Below are positions 1,172 through 60,200 of a stretch of 64,000 nt of DNA, one piece after another (position 1 is the stretch's first letter; every line of letters begins with the position of its first letter). Source of the DNA: Clostridiales bacterium. GTDB taxonomy: Bacteria; Bacillota; Clostridia; Christensenellales; Borkfalkiaceae. A program made the translations under genes and the position numbers. The notes beneath the pieces were generated by a model that saw only the letters and a program-made list of their open reading frames with translations, was not told where the DNA came from and did no database searches. The DNA lies in NCBI GenBank assembly GCA_015069565.1, contig SVIJ01000002.1, forward strand, positions 1 through 64,000, written 5' to 3'.

Positions 1172-3181
1172 ATGCAGCTTTCGGCGCTTAAAAATATAGG
1201 CGAAAAACGGGAAAAAGAGTTTATGGCTCTTGGGGTAAAGAGCGCGGAAGATCTCGCGCGCTACTTTCCGCGCGCCTATTTGGATTTGACGAGCCGTTCG
1301 CTTTTGAAAGACGCTTACCACAACGACGTCGTGCTGATTGCGGCGCAGGTCAACCGCGTGCAGGGGAGTCCCAACCCCAAGGCTCGCTTGAAAATCGTGC
1401 GCGCGTTTTGCGAACAGGACGGGTATCCTTTTACCATTGTTTGGTTCAATCAGCCGTACGTTGCAAATAAGCTTAAAACAGGTGAATACCTGTTTTACGG
1501 GCGCGTGCGCAACGAGTTCGGGCAACGGACGCTTATCAACCCGACCTTCGAGCCGCTCGATAAAAACGAGCACTTAAAGGGCATCATACCCGTCTATTCC
1601 TTGAAGGGCAAGCTGACGCAAAAGGTGGTGCGAAAGGCGGTGCAGGAAGCCTTGCAAAAGGTGAACATCGACAGCTTGATCCCGTACCCCTTGCAAAAAA
1701 AGTACGGCTTGCCGTCGCTGGCGCGGGCGTACTACGAAATCCATTCCCCGTCGAGTAGCTACAACATCGACAAGGCGGCGGAGCGGATTGCGATTGAAGA
1801 ATATTTCCTGCTCATCTCCGCGTTCAAAATGATCAAGGGGGGCAAGGAAGACGCGCGGCTGAAAAAATATTCAGTCACCGCGCGGGAAGTGAAGGCGTTT
1901 TCCGAACGGTTTGGCTTTGAGTTTACCGACGGGCAAAAACGGGCGGTGAATGAAATTTACGAAAACCTGCATAGCCCCACGAAGATGAATCGGCTTATCC
2001 AAGGGGACGTTGGCAGTGGTAAGACGGCGGTGGCGCTGTGCGGTATCTTCATGGCGGTGAAGAGCGGATATACCGCGGCGTACCTTTCCCCGACCGAAGT
2101 GCTCGCCGAGCAAAACTACCGCATTTTGCAAAAGTATTTCCCCGATTATCGCATCGGCTATCTTGCAGGCGCGATGAGCGCCAAGGAAAAGCGGCTGATG
2201 AAGGAAGCGCTGAAAGCTGGCGAAGTGGATATTTTGTGCGGCACGCACGCCATTTTGCAGGGGGACGTGGAAATCCCCAGCCTTGCCTTCGTCGTTTGCG
2301 ACGAACAGCACCGCTTTGGGGTGGCGCAGAGAAACGCGCTCAGCGAAAAAGGGGAAGGCGCCGACGTGCTCGTTATGTCCGCAACCCCGATCCCGAGAAC
2401 CCTTTCCTTGATCGTCTACGGGGATTTGGACATTACCACCATCACCGACAAGCCCAAGGCGCGGCAGGAAATTTCCACGTCGATTATTCCTGAAAGCCGC
2501 TATGAAGATATGCTCGACTACGTAGAGAGAGAAGTGCGCTCGGGCAAGCAAGCGTATTTCGTTTGTTCGAAGATCGAAGACGACGAAGAAGGGGAGCTGA
2601 TGAGCGTAAAAGAGCTCTACGACGAGCTCTCGGGCAGACTGCCCACCGTCCGTTTCGGGCTTTTGCACGGCAAGATGAAGGAAAAGGAAAAGGCGGAAGT
2701 GATGGCGGCGTTCAAAAACCGCGAAACGGATTGTTTGGTTTCGACGACGGTTATCGAAGTCGGCGTGGACGTGCCGAACGCCACCATTATGATTATCTAC
2801 AACGCCGAGCGTTTCGGGCTTTCCCAGCTTCATCAGCTTCGTGGGCGCGTCGGGCGGGGTAGCGAAAAGAGCTATTGTTTCCTGCTCATGGGCGCGGAAA
2901 CGGAGAGCGCGAAGGAACGGCTTTTGACCTTAAAGGGAACGACCGACGGGTTCAAGATTGCGGAAAAGGACTTGGAAATGCGCGGAAGCGGCGATTTCTT
3001 CGGCACGCGGCAATCGGGCAAGATGCTGACGGACATCAAGAACTTGCGGTATTCGACGGAAGTGATTTTCCTTGCCAAGCGGCTGACCGACGAAGCGTTT
3101 GAAGGGCAGTTCGATTTGGACGAAGTGCGCGACGCGGCAATACGCAAGTATGATGCGTTGAAGGACGTTGTGCTCAATTAA
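1172..3181 (+). CDS. recG: ATP-dependent DNA helicase RecG
   Basis: RecG is a superfamily 2 helicase that remodels stalled replication forks and branch-migrates Holliday junctions. The 669 residues match the usual length. The N-terminal wedge/OB region is followed by Walker A GDVGSGKT (about residue 279), the DEQH box with HRFG (about 376), motif III ATPIPRTL (about 403) and the C-terminal helicase motif QLRGRVGRG, so the enzyme looks intact. The ATG at 1172 is preceded by a GGGG-type ribosome site, and the protein begins with the expected helix-hairpin-like segment (LKNIGEKREKEF). A 160-bp gap with a probable terminator separates it from fakA, so it is probably transcribed separately. Confidence 0.96.
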   Translation: MQLSALKNIGEKREKEFMALGVKSAEDLARYFPRAYLDLTSRSLLKDAYHNDVVLIAAQVNRVQGSPNPKARLKIVRAFCEQDGYPFTIVWFNQPYVANKLKTGEYLFYGRVRNEFGQRTLINPTFEPLDKNEHLKGIIPVYSLKGKLTQKVVRKAVQEALQKVNIDSLIPYPLQKKYGLPSLARAYYEIHSPSSSYNIDKAAERIAIEEYFLLISAFKMIKGGKEDARLKKYSVTAREVKAFSERFGFEFTDGQKRAVNEIYENLHSPTKMNRLIQGDVGSGKTAVALCGIFMAVKSGYTAAYLSPTEVLAEQNYRILQKYFPDYRIGYLAGAMSAKEKRLMKEALKAGEVDILCGTHAILQGDVEIPSLAFVVCDEQHRFGVAQRNALSEKGEGADVLVMSATPIPRTLSLIVYGDLDITTITDKPKARQEISTSIIPESRYEDMLDYVEREVRSGKQAYFVCSKIEDDEEGELMSVKELYDELSGRLPTVRFGLLHGKMKEKEKAEVMAAFKNRETDCLVSTTVIEVGVDVPNATIMIIYNAERFGLSQLHQLRGRVGRGSEKSYCFLLMGAETESAKERLLTLKGTTDGFKIAEKDLEMRGSGDFFGTRQSGKMLTDIKNLRYSTEVIFLAKRLTDEAFEGQFDLDEVRDAAIRKYDALKDVVLN

Positions 3182-3990: not shown

Positions 3991-4073
3991 TTCGGGCAGG
4001 CTTGGCGGTGTACACCTCATCCACCGCAAGCGGTCCAGTTTGGCTCCATAGTTTGGATGGTTATAGGTGGATT

Positions 4074-4682
4074 GTGATATATCAATTTATTAAAAAATTA
4101 CGATATTTCATAGCGGTGTTGCTGATGGTGGCGCTGTCGTTCTCGTTTTGCAGTTGCGGAGTGCGCGTCTATACAAAGGTGGAAGATTACGGTGTGTTTT
4201 TTCAAACTAAAAACTTGTATGAAGACGACCAGTTGTTAATCTTTCCTGAAACCTTGGAAAATGCAAGTGTTGTAAACGGTTATAAATATTTAGATGGGTA
4301 TTATGGCTTTTTTGCAGGTGCACAAATCTATTTGGACGTGACCTACGACGAAGAAACATTTGCGAAAGAAACGGAGTATTGGTCGAATTATAAATACGAC
4401 GATACCGTAGTGGATGACGTTCCGCCAAAGTTTGACGATGCTTATTTATTTAACTACCCAACTTTTGTATTTGAATATCAATCGGTGGAATATCAATATA
4501 TCAGCGTTATAGAGCAGGAATGTAGGATGATATATGTGTATATAGAGATTGGTTCTGATGAAGTTATCCCTGATGAGTTTTTGCCGAAGAATTATTATAA
4601 AAATACATACGGTGCAGATGATGAAGATGACGGGTATTTGTTTTCTATAAAAAGTGTGCACGACGAAAGTTGGTATGAGTAA
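4074..4682 (+). CDS. Putative lipoprotein, copy 1 of a duplicated pair
   Basis: I do not recognise the family. The track starts at 4002, but the region before 4074 reads like non-coding sequence. An in-frame GTG at 4074 follows AGGTGG and gives a clean lipoprotein leader (positive residues, hydrophobic run, cysteine near SFCSCG). The mature part is acidic and rich in Tyr/Asp. From about residue 88 to the stop it is almost identical to the lipoprotein at 5758-6363, while the N-terminal parts differ. The gene is AT-rich compared with its neighbours and lies in an islet with an RHS-like remnant and a membrane protein. An accessory surface or immunity-type lipoprotein is possible, but this is inference. 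Confidence 0.6.
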   Translation: MIYQFIKKLRYFIAVLLMVALSFSFCSCGVRVYTKVEDYGVFFQTKNLYEDDQLLIFPETLENASVVNGYKYLDGYYGFFAGAQIYLDVTYDEETFAKETEYWSNYKYDDTVVDDVPPKFDDAYLFNYPTFVFEYQSVEYQYISVIEQECRMIYVYIEIGSDEVIPDEFLPKNYYKNTYGADDEDDGYLFSIKSVHDESWYE

Positions 4683-4955: not shown

Positions 4956-5621
4956 ATGGAAAAGAAAAGAAAACTTTTTATTATATTTATGTTGCTTGCG
5001 TTATGCAATGGTATATCGCTAATTATTCAAGCGGTATTGATATATAAACAACAAATACATTTGTCGATACCGATTTTTACATTCATTTTATTTTGTGTTT
5101 CTTTCTTAATGGCTTTTTGGACATTTTCAAGGTATACGAATTGCTATTTTCGTACGCCGTTGAGTTGTCGTTTTCGAGAAGTTTTTTCTAAAAAAGAAGA
5201 GTTGTCGGATGGGAATTATCAGATTATCCTTGTGCATAAAGGTAAAGGTATTTGGATGCTGGGGGATGAAATTGCCTTTGATTTAAGGGGTTATTTGTTT
5301 CCTAAAATGTATTTGTGCAGTTATTTTGTCCGTAATTTTCATTATCCTGTTATGAATAAAAAGAAGTTGCCGCTAAAATGTTTGTTTGAACCGTTGAAGA
5401 TTGAGAAAATCCGTAGCTTTAACATTGTTTTTGTTGACGGCAAAAAGAAGAAAACGGCGGCTATTATAAAAAAAGGGAAAACGGTCGTTCCGTTTTTTCG
5501 TGGGTTGACGATTCAAAGTAGGTTTTATGCTGAAACGCTGCTTTATACGGAAACTGTTTTTGGAAAGCATGTTTTTAGAAAATATATCTATATGGACGAA
5601 GATATATATAACCGTCGTTAA
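4956..5621 (+). CDS. Two-TM membrane protein of unknown function
   Basis: The track starts at 4914, but ATG 4956 begins a normal protein (MEKKRKLF) right after the stop of the RHS-like frame. Residues about 6-27 and 33-55 are two hydrophobic segments; the remaining 165 residues form a basic, probably cytoplasmic domain rich in Lys and Phe. I recognise no family. It lies in the AT-rich islet between the two lipoprotein copies and is probably expressed from the promoter at 4720. Its place next to an RHS fragment is compatible with an immunity-type gene, but nothing in the sequence proves it. Confidence 0.6.
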   Translation: MEKKRKLFIIFMLLALCNGISLIIQAVLIYKQQIHLSIPIFTFILFCVSFLMAFWTFSRYTNCYFRTPLSCRFREVFSKKEELSDGNYQIILVHKGKGIWMLGDEIAFDLRGYLFPKMYLCSYFVRNFHYPVMNKKKLPLKCLFEPLKIEKIRSFNIVFVDGKKKKTAAIIKKGKTVVPFFRGLTIQSRFYAETLLYTETVFGKHVFRKYIYMDEDIYNRR

Positions 5622-5757
5622 GATGTGGCAGGGCGTGGGGCTTGCTCTCGCCGAAGGTGGGGGAATAGTTGTCCTGACGGACAAGCGAGATTACGCCTGC
5701 GGCGTAGCGATATTTGCCCAAATGGGGAACGGTAGCTTTAATGATTATAGGTGCGTT

Positions 5758-6363
5758 ATGAAAAAACAAAGGTGTCAAAATATTTTTCGTTTTTTATTTG
5801 TGTGGATACTGGCGTTTATGGTGTATAGTTTCAGTGGGTGTTCTTTGGCTCGTGTGAGCAGAGATATTGAAAAATATGGACAATTTCGCAAAAATGATAT
5901 GTTGCATGAAAGCGAGATTTTGATTTTTCCCGAAGATTTAAGCGAAGCAAAACAGGTAAATGAGTATGTTTATCTATTCGATACTATTGCGTGGGGCGGA
6001 ACGCAAATTTATTTAGACGTGACCTACGACGAAGAAACGTTTGCGAAAGAAAGGGAGTATTGGTCGAATTATAAATACGACGATACCGTAGTGGATGACG
6101 TTCCGCCAAAGTTTGACGATGCTTATTTATTTAACTACCCAACTTTTGTATTTGAATATCAATCGGTGGAATATCAATATATCAGCGTTATAGAGCAGGA
6201 ATGTAGGATGATATATGTGTATATAGAGATTGGTTCTGATGAAGTTATCCCTGATGAGTTTTTGCCGAAGAATTATTATAAAAATACATACGGTGCAGAT
6301 GATGAAGATGACGGGTATTTGTTTTCTATAAAAAGTGTGCACGACGAAAGTTGGTATGAGTAA
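5758..6363 (+). CDS. Putative lipoprotein, copy 2 of a duplicated pair
   Basis: The track extends to 5527, but ATG 5758 gives a typical lipoprotein signal (MKKQRC, hydrophobic run, lipobox FSGC with Cys about residue 28). Mature residues up to about 85 diverge from copy 1 although they still align with it (RDIEKYGQF against TKVEDYGVF). The rest is essentially identical at nucleotide level. So two old paralogues have recently been homogenised over their 3' halves. The family is not recognised. The gap before it (5622-5757) contains a degenerate GTAG-type REP and a segment that recurs near 31490-31545. Confidence 0.65.
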   Translation: MKKQRCQNIFRFLFVWILAFMVYSFSGCSLARVSRDIEKYGQFRKNDMLHESEILIFPEDLSEAKQVNEYVYLFDTIAWGGTQIYLDVTYDEETFAKEREYWSNYKYDDTVVDDVPPKFDDAYLFNYPTFVFEYQSVEYQYISVIEQECRMIYVYIEIGSDEVIPDEFLPKNYYKNTYGADDEDDGYLFSIKSVHDESWYE

Positions 6364-7472: not shown

Positions 7473-7688
7473 AGTGAATTGAAAACCGTCGGTTTTCGTG
7501 AATTGAAACTGCGGTTTCGTGAATTCTCGCTGACGCTCCGTGAATTGTTTGCCTATGGCAAACGTTGCGGAAAAATTTATAATAATTCGATAACGCAAGG
7601 CAACGCCTTGCAATTCACGACGGCAAAGCCGTCAATTCACGCGTTTGTAAAACGCAATTCACGATTGCATATGGCAAGCAATTCACTT
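7473..7688. repeat. Family 1 hairpin-array repeat, copy A (full)
   Basis: A composite element: hairpins GAAAACC-GTC-GGTTTTC, GAAAC-TGCG-GTTTC and GTTTGCC-TAT-GGCAAAC separated by GTGAATT, a central part with GCAAGGC-AAC-GCCTTGC, then GACGGC-AAA-GCCGTC, GCGTTT-GTA-AAACGC and an imperfect GATTGC hairpin separated by AATTCAC. With the repeat at 7703 it fills most of the 380-bp gap between the minE-like gene and ktrA. Confidence 0.92.
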
Positions 7689-7702
7689 TACGCTTGCCGT
7701 CC

Positions 7703-7770
7703 GAGATCCTTCGGCTACGCTCAGGATGACAAACAGGGGAGCTGTGCTCAGGATGACAATAGGGGCGCAG
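7703..7770. repeat. AGATCCTTCGGCTACGCTCAGGATGAC-type dispersed repeat
   Basis: Contains AGATCCTTCGGCTACGCTCA and a second CTCAGGATGACA. A related word, in inverse sense, is at 43097 (TGTCATTCTGAGCGGAG). Confidence 0.6.
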
Positions 7771-12292: not shown

Positions 12293-12325
12293 AAAAAGCA
12301 AGCCGTTTGGCTTGCTTTCTTTTAT
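12293..12325. terminator. Terminator after the small Xre gene
   Basis: AAAGCAAGCC-GTTT-GGCTTGCTTT with a T-rich tail. Nearly the same sequence as the terminator at 11603. It reaches into the end of the convergent RAYT gene. Confidence 0.8.
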
Positions 12326-12849
12326 TCTTCGGGGGAGTAAAAACAGTCCAGTTCCCAACGCAAAGGATTTTCCGCAACGTATTTTGCAATGTTTTCATAA
12401 TCGCTTGCGTTGCGAATGATATGGTCGTGGTAGCCCCGTTGCCATACGTGCGCTACTCCAAATTTTTGGCGGATTTGTTTTGACGCATTCATTTTCACAT
12501 AACCGATTGCTTTGGATATTTTAGAGCGCGTTTGCTCCCGTAGGGGCGATTCACGAATCGCCCGCGCATCTTCCGTTTCGGATATTATTAAAATAATGTG
12601 AATATGGTTGGGCATGATAACGTATCCGTCTACGGATAATGAAAAACGCGTAGATAGCTGTTCAATATAATATTGAACGATTTTTCCGTATTCGGTCAAC
12701 TCCGTTTCGGGCGATTCGTGAATCGCCCCTACGATGCGACTGAGCGTCTTTTGCTTTTGATGAGTGCAGACGGTGATAAAATACGCGCCTGGGGTGCTGT
12801 AATCATAATCTTGTAAGCGTAAACGCTTGCGTTTTAATAATTCTTTCAT
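12322..12849 (-). CDS. REP-associated tyrosine transposase (RAYT)
   Basis: A single-copy Y1-type HUH enzyme of the IS200-like/TnpA_REP group, which cuts and joins single-stranded DNA at REP hairpins. The 175-aa protein contains the family start KRKRLRLQDYDYSTPGAYFITVC, the HUH motif in MPNHIHIILI, the late GVAHVWQRGYHDHIIRN with the expected catalytic region, and YVAENPLRW. The track starts at 12921 inside trmO; ATG 12849, 8 bp after the trmO stop, is preferred. Two GTAG-headed REP-like hairpins lie inside the reading frame, encoding GAIHESPE and RAIRESPL in two predicted loops. TnpA_REP proteins are thought to be domesticated, non-self-mobile enzymes. Confidence 0.88.
   Translation of the reverse strand: MKELLKRKRLRLQDYDYSTPGAYFITVCTHQKQKTLSRIVGAIHESPETELTEYGKIVQYYIEQLSTRFSLSVDGYVIMPNHIHIILIISETEDARAIRESPLREQTRSKISKAIGYVKMNASKQIRQKFGVAHVWQRGYHDHIIRNASDYENIAKYVAENPLRWELDCFYSPEE
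12540..12563 (+). repeat. GTAG-headed REP-like hairpin inside RAYT (REP1)
   Basis: GTAG, then GGGCGATTC-AC-GAATCGCCC, a perfect 9-bp stem. Orientation is plus, so its head points to the 3' end of RAYT. Confidence 0.85.
12709..12732 (-). repeat. GTAG-headed REP-like hairpin inside RAYT (REP2)
   Basis: Exact inverse of REP1: GGGCGATTC-GT-GAATCGCCC followed by CTAC. The two elements are 145 bp apart with heads facing outward. Confidence 0.85.
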
Positions 12850-12856
12850 ATTCGTT

Positions 12857-30154: not shown

Positions 30155-30218
30155 GAGTGAATGGAACGCTGTGCGTTTGCAAAACGCAATTCACGATTGC
30201 CGTAGGCAATCAATTCAC
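30155..30218. repeat. Family 1 hairpin-array repeat, copy B (short)
   Basis: AGTGAATGGAACGC, then GCGTTT-GC-AAAACGC, AATTCAC, GATTGCC-GTA-GGCAATC and ATTCAC. It consists of the two ends of the element with the middle missing. Confidence 0.85.
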
Positions 30219-31485: not shown

Positions 31486-31540
31486 GTGAACGATAGTTGT
31501 CCTTACGGACAAGCGCGATTACGCTTATGGCGTAGCGATA

Positions 31541-31682
31541 TGTTTGCTGTTGGCAAACGTTGTGGGGGAATTTATAATAATTCCATAACGCAAGGCAACG
31601 CCTTGCAATGCACGACGGCACAGCCGTCAATTCACGCGTTTGTAAAACGCAATTCACGATTGCCTACGGCAATCCATTCACA
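31541..31682. repeat. Family 1 hairpin-array repeat, copy C
   Basis: Contains GTTTGC-TGTT-GGCAAAC, a central GGAATT-TATAAT-AATTCC, GCAAGGC-AAC-GCCTTGC, GACGGC-ACA-GCCGTC, GCGTTT-GTA-AAACGC and GATTGCC-TAC-GGCAATC, the last ones separated by AATTCAC (once ATGCAC). With the REP and the YwaF promoter it fills the 400-bp gap. Confidence 0.9.
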
Positions 31683-38468: not shown

Positions 38469-38489
38469 GTAATCACAACTAAAAGATGC

Positions 38490-38665
38490 ACGGTACGGCT
38501 GATAAGCGCAGCCGTTTAATAGGGAAACGAGTATTGCTCTGCTACCCCCGTAACCGTAGGAATGCTTTGCCCCTTTTCATTGTCGAAAGATGAGAAGAAA
38601 GGGGGCAGGTATGCGATGAACGCATACAAGGCGTTGTAAGCCGGGAGACCTGCCGAAGAAAAACA
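38490..38665 (+). ncRNA. Cobalamin riboswitch
   Basis: The conserved core is readable: TTTAATAGGGAAACGAGT, then CTGCTACCCCCGTAACCGTAG, a variable arm, and the 3' segment AAGCCGGGAGACCTGCC. This order matches the adenosylcobalamin/B12 aptamer. Downstream GCCACG-TTTTGC-CGTGGC and a strong terminator hairpin complete an OFF-type switch: bound B12 should end transcription before the lipoprotein gene. Confidence 0.92.
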
Positions 38666-38748
38666 ATAGTTTTTTGCGTCTTTACCACCCTTTTGCGGGG
38701 ATGCGAAAGAAGGTGCGCTAAGCCACGTTTTGCCGTGGCGGTTTTGCG

Positions 38749-38815: not shown

Positions 38816-39238
38816 ATGAAAAAACTTTTGGCGTGTCTATTTGCGGCGGTGGGGCTTTTCGTCTTTGCGGCGTGCGGAACATCGAACGGCGCGGGCAAAA
38901 CGGTCGCTAACGTGATCAAGGAAGAAAATATGGTGATTATCACCATCGAAGAAGTGGACGGCGAGCCCACGCTTTTGGACGTAATGAACGATTTGAAGGA
39001 CGGCGGAAAGCTTACTTTCACCGTTTTAGCGGACGGAATGGTTGCTTCCATCGAAGGGAAAGAGAATGCGGCGGACTGGTCGGCGGTTTGGATGCTGTAC
39101 ACGTCGGACAGCGAGATGGCGGACGCTTCTTTTAGTATCGAATGGCAAGGGGAAAGTTGCGGTTCGGCGGTGGTGGGCGCAAATGCGCTTGGCGTGCTCG
39201 CAGGCGAAAGGTATATTTGGTATTATCAAAGCTTCTAA
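38816..39238 (+). CDS. DUF4430 (transcobalamin-like) lipoprotein
   Basis: The 140-residue lipoprotein has lipobox FAAC (Cys about 20) and a mature domain matching DUF4430, related to the C-terminal domain of transcobalamin/intrinsic factor: TLLDVMNDL, a central GMVASIEGKENAADWSAVWMLY and the end YIWYYQSF. Under a cobalamin riboswitch, its likely job is capture of B12 at the cell surface for the ECF transporter encoded next. The ribosome site is AAAGGAG before the ATG. The link to B12 rests on the riboswitch plus family; binding is not shown. Confidence 0.85.
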   Translation: MKKLLACLFAAVGLFVFAACGTSNGAGKTVANVIKEENMVIITIEEVDGEPTLLDVMNDLKDGGKLTFTVLADGMVASIEGKENAADWSAVWMLYTSDSEMADASFSIEWQGESCGSAVVGANALGVLAGERYIWYYQSF

Positions 39239-39241
39239 AAC

Positions 39242-39429
39242 AGTGAATGGAACGCGTTGCGTTCGTGAATTGTCGTTGACGCGACGTGAATTGTTTGCCT
39301 GTGGCAAACGTTGCGGTAGAGTTTCAATGTTTCCATAACGCAAGGCAACGCCTTGCAATTCACGACGGCTGTGCCGTCAATTCACGCGTTTGAAAAACGC
39401 AATTCACGATTGCCTTGCAATCATTCACT
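39242..39429. repeat. Family 1 hairpin-array repeat, copy D (full)
   Basis: GTGAATGGAACGC..., GTCG-TTGACG-CGAC, GTTTGCC-TGT-GGCAAAC, centre, CAAGGC-AAC-GCCTTG, GACGGC-TGT-GCCGTC, GCGTTT-GAA-AAACGC and GATTGC-CTT-GCAATC. It lies inside the B12 operon between the lipoprotein and the S component, where it would be transcribed and could fold. Confidence 0.93.
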
Positions 39430-39459
39430 TTCTATTACTTTCCCTATGGCAGGTATGCG

Positions 39460-42877: not shown

Positions 42878-43090
42878 AGTGAATGGAACGCGTTGCGTTC
42901 GTGAATTGAAATCTACGATTTCGTGAATTGTCGCTGGTGCGACGTGAATTGTTTGCCTATGGCAAACGTTGCGGAAGAATTGAAATTTTTCCATAACGCA
43001 AGGCAACGCCTTGCAATTCACGACGGCGTTGCCGTCAATTCACGCGTTTGCAAACGCAATTCACGATTGCTACAAGCAATCCATTCACTT
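42878..43090. repeat. Family 1 hairpin-array repeat, copy E (most complete)
   Basis: GTGAATGGAACGCGTTGCGT, GAAATC-TAC-GATTTC, GTCGC-TGGT-GCGAC, GTTTGCC-TAT-GGCAAAC, centre, CAAGGC-AAC-GCCTTG, GACGGC-GTT-GCCGTC, GCGTTT-GC-AAACGC and GATTGCT-ACA-AGCAATC, with GTGAATT joints on the left and AATTCAC joints on the right. It fills most of the 550-bp gap before ileS. Confidence 0.95.
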
Positions 43091-43096
43091 TAATAT

Positions 43097-43135
43097 GTCA
43101 TTCTGAGCGGAGCGATAGCGCAGTCGAAGAATCTG
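43097..43135. repeat. TGTCATTCTGAGCGGAG dispersed repeat
   Basis: TGTCATTCTGAGCGGAGCGA through GTCGAAGAATCT. It is the inverse-sense relative of 7703-7730 and adjoins family 1 copy E just as that one adjoins copy A. Confidence 0.6.
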
Positions 43136-60050: not shown

Positions 60051-60146
60051 AGTGAATTGATTTGCCTTGCAAATCGTGAATTGCCGCACAAGCGGCGTGA
60101 ATTGTTTTCCTTTGGAAAACGTGAATTGTAAGGCAACGCCTTACGT
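60051..60146. repeat. Family 1 hairpin-array repeat, copy F (left half only)
   Basis: Four perfect hairpins joined by GTGAATT: GATTTGC-CTT-GCAAATC, GCCGC-ACAA-GCGGC, GTTTTCC-TTT-GGAAAAC and GTAAGGC-AAC-GCCTTAC. No AATTCAC half is present. Confidence 0.93.
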
Positions 60147-60200
60147 TATGGAAAGGGGCAGTAATTGCATACCTGCCCCCTTCATTTTCATGTTTTGCTC

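Follow-up and report, generated by a model that had tools for sequence, protein, structure and literature searches.

The window analysed here, namely the whole 64,000-nucleotide stretch at the start of contig SVIJ01000002.1 of a Clostridiales bacterium, contains at positions 42879–43088 a complete copy of an intergenic repeat built as a chain of perfect hairpins. Its left arm (42879–42967, + strand) consists of four joint–hairpin units, in which one GTGAATG joint and three successive GTGAATT joints are each followed by a perfect hairpin (hairpins 1–4). The centre (42968–42997, +) comprises a stem, GTTGCGGAA..TTCCATAAC, with an AT-rich loop, and corresponds to the position of a PF05635 gene in relatives. 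The right arm (42998–43088, +) consists of four hairpin–joint units, starting with hairpin 5 (GCAAGGC-AAC-GCCTTGC) and continuing with hairpins 6–8, with three AATTCAC joints and one CATTCAC joint. Joints and hairpins follow each other without a single spare base, the stems span 5–7 bp, and the loops of the window copies are mostly of 3 nt. An initial annotation of this DNA had taken CAAGGC-AAC-GCCTTG as the core of the repeat; this sequence is hairpin 5, and the true centre reads GTTGYGG...CCWTAAC (GTTGCGG..CCATAAC in the 42879–43088 copy). Its description of perfect-hairpin chains punctuated by GTGAATT in the left half and by AATTCAC in the right was confirmed in the window, far beyond chance, and all 27 words (13 GTGAATT and 14 AATTCAC) fall within the six loci that it had named.

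A second complete copy, with eight hairpins and 4 + 4 joints, is found at 7474–7686 (+), where it starts 5 bp past a stop codon between convergent genes. The copy at 39241–39430 (+), which lacks one left hairpin, starts just past the stop codon of the gene at 38816–39238. A chimeric copy at 31497–31682 (+) combines a left arm with GCGATAT joints (31497–31558) with a centre and right arm of AATTCAC type, and a deletion copy at 30155–30218 (+) retains the first joint, followed by hairpin 1 fused into hairpin 7 and then by hairpin 8. The copy at 60052–60153 (no strand assigned) is a left half only, which runs into an intrinsic-terminator-like palindrome between prfB and tsaD; this palindrome is present without a chain in the sister genome G331. 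A dispersed repeat, TGTCATTCTGAGCGGAGCG..GAAGAATCTCGGACGGCAAGCGG, repeatedly abuts chain ends (window positions 43095–43135 and 7690–7730; L263:7840–7900). Elsewhere in the window, the neighbouring ORFs at 4002–4682 and 5527–6363 have identical C-terminal parts (YSNYKYDDTVVDDVPPKFDD...), indicating a recent partial duplication, and a cobalamin riboswitch (63 bits) is located at 38474–38671 (+), upstream of the lipoprotein-like ORF at 38816–39238. This riboswitch was the only match to Rfam covariance models in the window; the chains gave none, nor did locus Y of the sister genome G330 (see below), which agrees with the initial annotation, to whose author no named repeat family with this punctuation was known.

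The presence of many copies, which the initial annotation had proposed as a check, was verified in the source genome, a 1.27-Mb draft that is 83% complete. One copy returned 58 BLAST matches, and a pattern of three GTGAATT words at hairpin spacing returned 87, compared with 0 for the reversed control pattern. Direct reading of 417 kb yielded 59 chains of at least three hairpins, and shuffled sequence yielded none. Flush hairpins of at least 4 bp occupied 102 of the 117 distinct spacers between like joints, against 0.6% in shuffled sequence. Viral carriage was discarded, as none of 225 spacers was a hairpin among the viral-contig matches listed for the triple GTGAATT pattern. The source genome also contains a second chain family with GCGATAT/GCGAGAT joints, often reduced to a left arm and adjoining a GTAGGGCGGGGGCTTGCTCCCGCC palindrome (L263:15000–15320; L264:960–1240 and 2740–3060; L266:11500–11780). 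At L282:4253–4458, a right arm has expanded so that two hairpins (GCCAACACAGTTGGC / GAAAACTCCGTTTTC) alternate in tandem between identical joints.

As a single strand, the element is predicted to reach its energy minimum in a gap-free "fishbone" with 7-bp joint rungs, opposed hairpins and four four-way junctions (z-scores of −8.7 for RNA and −7.8 for DNA). DNA folding returned the exact ladder, and RNA folding paired the outermost segment slightly differently. The multi-branched fold with joints pairing across the element, as envisaged earlier, thus stands as the predicted energy minimum, yet strict conservation is lacking: many of the right joints in G022 read ATTTCAC, one mismatch away from complementing GTGAATT. 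As the joints are nearly invariant, they provide almost no covariation evidence for pairing across the element, and their constancy, taken with the mismatch in G022, is explained as well by sequence recognition as by pairing.

Comparison of 16 copies of the main subfamily gave mean pairwise differences of 0.50 for the loops, 0.27 for the centre loop, 0.063 for the hairpin stems and 0.023 for the joints, so that loop divergence exceeds that of the stems 8-fold and that of the seven-letter joints 20-fold. Covariation, another of the proposed checks, was found as double-sided compensation in 18 cells, compared with 3.9 in column shuffles, and was removed by sliding the partners. Loop inversion was rejected as the source of loop variety because both orientations are common in hairpin 6 and not in most others. 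Chains are also present in relatives, where the initial annotation had proposed to look for them: they occur in 17 of 57 congeneric genomes (in one by a single match; the other 40 have none), in another family of the same order (f16), and in other families of the class, where the same plan is realised with GTGAAGT/ACTTCAC joints and T..A-closed hairpins. The hairpin sequences are wholly different (88 distinct arms in the genus and 31 in f16), with flush hairpins in 74% and 71% of spacers, respectively, compared with less than 1% after shuffling. The dominant copies of the sister genome G330 keep the plan with other hairpins, and some identical hairpins reappear at other positions. The named records that share a conserved piece are clostridial MAGs, many of ruminant-gut origin. 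The repeats represent a clear natural case of an architecture that is kept while its sequence modules are exchanged.

At locus Y, an intergenic site upstream of a glnS-like gene, a 117-aa ORF lies exactly at the centre between the arms in G330, G326 and G006; G337 and G346, read by their flanks, have the same flanking genes and arms. The ORF matches PF05635 (E 2e-26) and TIGR02436 (E 8e-31), with 2RLD as a solved relative. These families correspond to the 23S rRNA intervening-sequence (IVS) protein S23, a four-helix bundle. The initial annotation, partly supported overall, had foreseen neither this gene between the arms nor the larger class of chains to which the repeat belongs, in which each PF05635-linked chain has a joint of its own (GTGAATT, GTGAAGT, GTGAAAT, GCGATAT, GTTATAT, ATGAATT, ATGATAT and others). 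A family scan found PF05635 genes above the curated cut-off in 20 congeneric genomes and no match in the source genome, which is 83% complete. Judged by eye, approximately 37 of 55 PF05635 loci from this and other families are within a chain or immediately after one, with the gene between arms in about 10 and a chain directly upstream in about 27; L465, L472 and L482 have no chain. A generic detector of three-hairpin chains lacking a shared joint was abandoned as too noisy near PF05635 genes (27/55 versus 84/531 in the background), and a blind inverted-repeated-word score was used instead. Scores of at least 7 were obtained at 28 of the 55 loci. In windows distant from the gene at those loci the figure was 2 of 93, and in G331, which has no chains, it was 33 of 438 windows. 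Within the genus, the presence of PF05635 does not track GTGAATT chains (7 of 17 genomes with chains versus 13 of 40 without; p = 0.56), and the class-level link is weak (7/12 versus 27%; p = 0.04). Both results would fit non-autonomous copies, loss of the gene, other types of joint and incomplete MAGs, but they are not positive evidence.

PF05635 relatives were also found on plasmids from Nostoc, Dolichospermum, Aulosira, Planktothrix, Euhalothece, Treponema and Bernardetia, with tandem heptamers upstream and, in many, the reverse complement downstream. Strong exact periodicity of 7 or 14 was present on 21 of 40 gene sides from plasmids and phages of other phyla, compared with 0 of 80 control windows, although several Nostoc loci are interrelated and these are thus not 20 independent cases; none of 1213 windows of G331 had period 7. 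In cyanobacteria and others, the heptamers abut directly with no hairpin between them, and a fecal phage scaffold carries a hairpin chain with GTGATAT joints before its PF05635 gene. In the 23S rRNA IVS of Coxiella, GACAGAT heptamer repeats are located before the S23 gene (PMC4990558). Homologous Nostoc plasmids that lack the gene (C052, C057 and UHCC 0870) differ through the replacement of a segment, rather than by a simple insertion, so that no target duplication is readable.

In our view, the repeats are probably MITE-like and non-autonomous copies of a structured element that, in its fuller form, bears a central PF05635/TIGR02436 gene. They have the form of MITEs, being non-coding, of ~210 bp, delimited by terminal inverted repeats (GTGAATT..AATTCAC) and numbering ~50 in one third of the genome; no transposase was identified, and no duplication was seen at the diverged sister loci. 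That PF05635 resembles no transposase counts against a mobile element. The most economical way to unite these observations is to equate the 7-nt joint of the window with the heptamer of an IVS-protein element, the hairpins being set between the heptamers. The element is founded on a heptamer that is repeated in tandem to one side and as its reverse complement to the other; in these Clostridia a perfect hairpin stands between successive heptamers, so that one strand is predicted to fold into the fishbone of 7-bp rungs and four-way junctions. The IVS protein, encoded in cis or supplied in trans, would bind the element's nucleic acid at its heptamers and hairpins. Acting with another enzyme, which might be a reverse transcriptase or a recombinase of the host, it would let copies spread and exchange hairpins at the heptamers. 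The architecture, its persistence while the sequence changes, the copies particular to one lineage and the place of the gene are observed; binding by the protein, mobility and the chemistry of mobility are inferred. PF05635 resembles the Avd protein of diversity-generating retroelements, and proteins of the Avd type work together with a reverse transcriptase.

Among the loci alignable between the source genome and G330, the element is present in both genomes at three, in the source genome only at five, and in G330 only at four. In one shared copy (L260/L406), stems and joints differ at 3 of 136 sites by hand count, compared with 20 of 74 in the left flank; at another shared locus several hairpins have been replaced in place, and one copy has a terminator-like palindrome inside it in both species. 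Neither a target-site duplication nor a clean empty site was seen at the loci of the source genome, G330 and G331, which are too diverged to yield exact junctions. The chains might instead be 3'-end elements used by the host, which would stabilise or terminate mRNAs or take up supercoils behind genes, functions that have been proposed for REP/BIME repeats, and be kept by selection. Such a role is in line with the enclosed palindrome and with the orthologous resident copy, which keeps its stems and joints while loops and flanks diverge; this constraint leaves room for a host function, as a purely selfish element would not need it. It is likewise in line with the placement of the copies, of which one out of 42 classified lies in a divergent intergenic region (9.4 expected; p = 0.0003) and not one lies within a predicted gene, counts that are approximate because the genes were called with a simple codon-usage caller. 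Avoidance of promoters, however, is equally expected of tolerated insertions. Furthermore, the centre is oriented at random to transcription (14 versus 11), which also led us to reject an RNA element specific to the transcribed strand; most loci differ between the sister species; 40 of the 57 congeneric genomes do without chains; and the PF05635 gene between the arms is left unexplained. We regard the host role as an unlikely account of the chains.

Even less credible is an origin as REP/BIME-type repeats moved by a RAYT, a Y1 HUH transposase recognising a short word plus a hairpin. The word-plus-hairpin units in opposite orientations do recall REPIN/BIME units, GTAG-hairpin repeats adjoin some chains, and a window ORF at 12322–12852 (−) matches Y1_Tnp. 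This RAYT-like ORF contains, in frame, a pair of GTAG-type palindromes in inverted orientation (GTAGGGGCGATTCACGAATCGCCC and its inverse), and it bears palindromes of that type and not GTGAATT units. Y1_Tnp does not track the chains (8 of 17 genomes with chains versus 13 of 40 without; p = 0.37) and is absent from G329, which is 93% complete and has 69 pattern matches, so that its distribution does not support such an origin. Moreover, REP families share one hairpin sequence, whereas eight different hairpins occur here with the joint alone in common. The chains are like REP, REPIN and BIME repeats with RAYT (PMC3116915, PMC3733652, PMC2817692) in being dispersed intergenic palindromes with a short unpaired tag by the hairpin and opposite orientations. 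They differ in having 7-nt joints, GTGAATT/AATTCAC and variants, instead of a GTAG/CGTC tag beside each palindrome, many different hairpins per element, and a link to PF05635 in place of one to RAYT. Least probable is a mutational process such as template switching at palindromes, through which perfect hairpins would arise and persist with no element-level function: it accords with stems that stay perfect, loops that vary freely and modules that change wholesale, but correction alone would let stems drift neutrally, yet stem sequence is conserved between orthologues, and the invariant joints, the left/right orientation switch and the PF05635 gene are all unexplained.

Among known systems, the chains resemble 23S rRNA IVSs such as that of Coxiella (PMC4990558) in the same-family gene (PF05635/TIGR02436), the flanking inverted repeats that form a stable stem, the heptamer repeats before the gene in Coxiella, and the long-suspected mobility. 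In contrast to IVSs, the chains are dispersed in many, mostly gene-less copies, are built of hairpins, and lie outside rRNA, between protein genes rather than within a 23S rRNA helix, the site from which RNase III excises IVSs. An S23/IVP gene inside the element is found in the gene-bearing relatives, at locus Y and elsewhere, and not in the window copies or the source genome. Mobility of IVSs has been suspected since the 1990s, with a mechanism lacking. The BOX elements of Streptococcus pneumoniae are likewise small modular intergenic repeats with a variable number of modules and a stable fold; BOX modules have fixed sequences, whereas the chains conserve joints and architecture only. STRR repeats of heterocystous cyanobacteria are tandem heptamers, and heptamers of a possibly related kind flank PF05635 genes on cyanobacterial plasmids here; unlike the chains, STRR heptamers have no interposed hairpins.

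Across phyla, PF05635 "IVS" proteins may be the dedicated partner of unrecognised heptamer-lattice mobile elements, tandem on one flank, inverted on the opposite one and with or without hairpins, of which the 23S rRNA IVS and perhaps the cyanobacterial heptamer repeats would be special cases. We advance this extension tentatively, being almost evenly divided about it. PF05635 proteins are present in many bacteria and, according to PMC4990558, lack a known function; recurrent heptamer and hairpin arrays outside rRNA provide a concrete candidate for their nucleic-acid partner. In the open-access literature searched, GTGAATT was not found together with "repeat", and PF05635 proteins were not linked to hairpin or heptamer arrays outside rRNA, both of which are weak observations as most subscription journals lie outside that corpus.

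PF05635 genes were encountered in further contexts. Some directly follow tRNA genes and are enclosed in long inverted repeats of the type TTACTTATTACCTATTCAC..GTGAATAGTAATAAG (L466, L469, L475, L490 and L502). On plasmids, they are flanked by cas1 and cas2 or embedded in restriction/helicase loci (L516, L524, L510, L517 and L527). Two cyanobacterial plasmids have the gene between cas1 and cas2, and a related plasmid has cas1–cas2 without it. This position may explain why a 23S rRNA IVP entry is listed among CRISPR-linked domains (PMC10910872).
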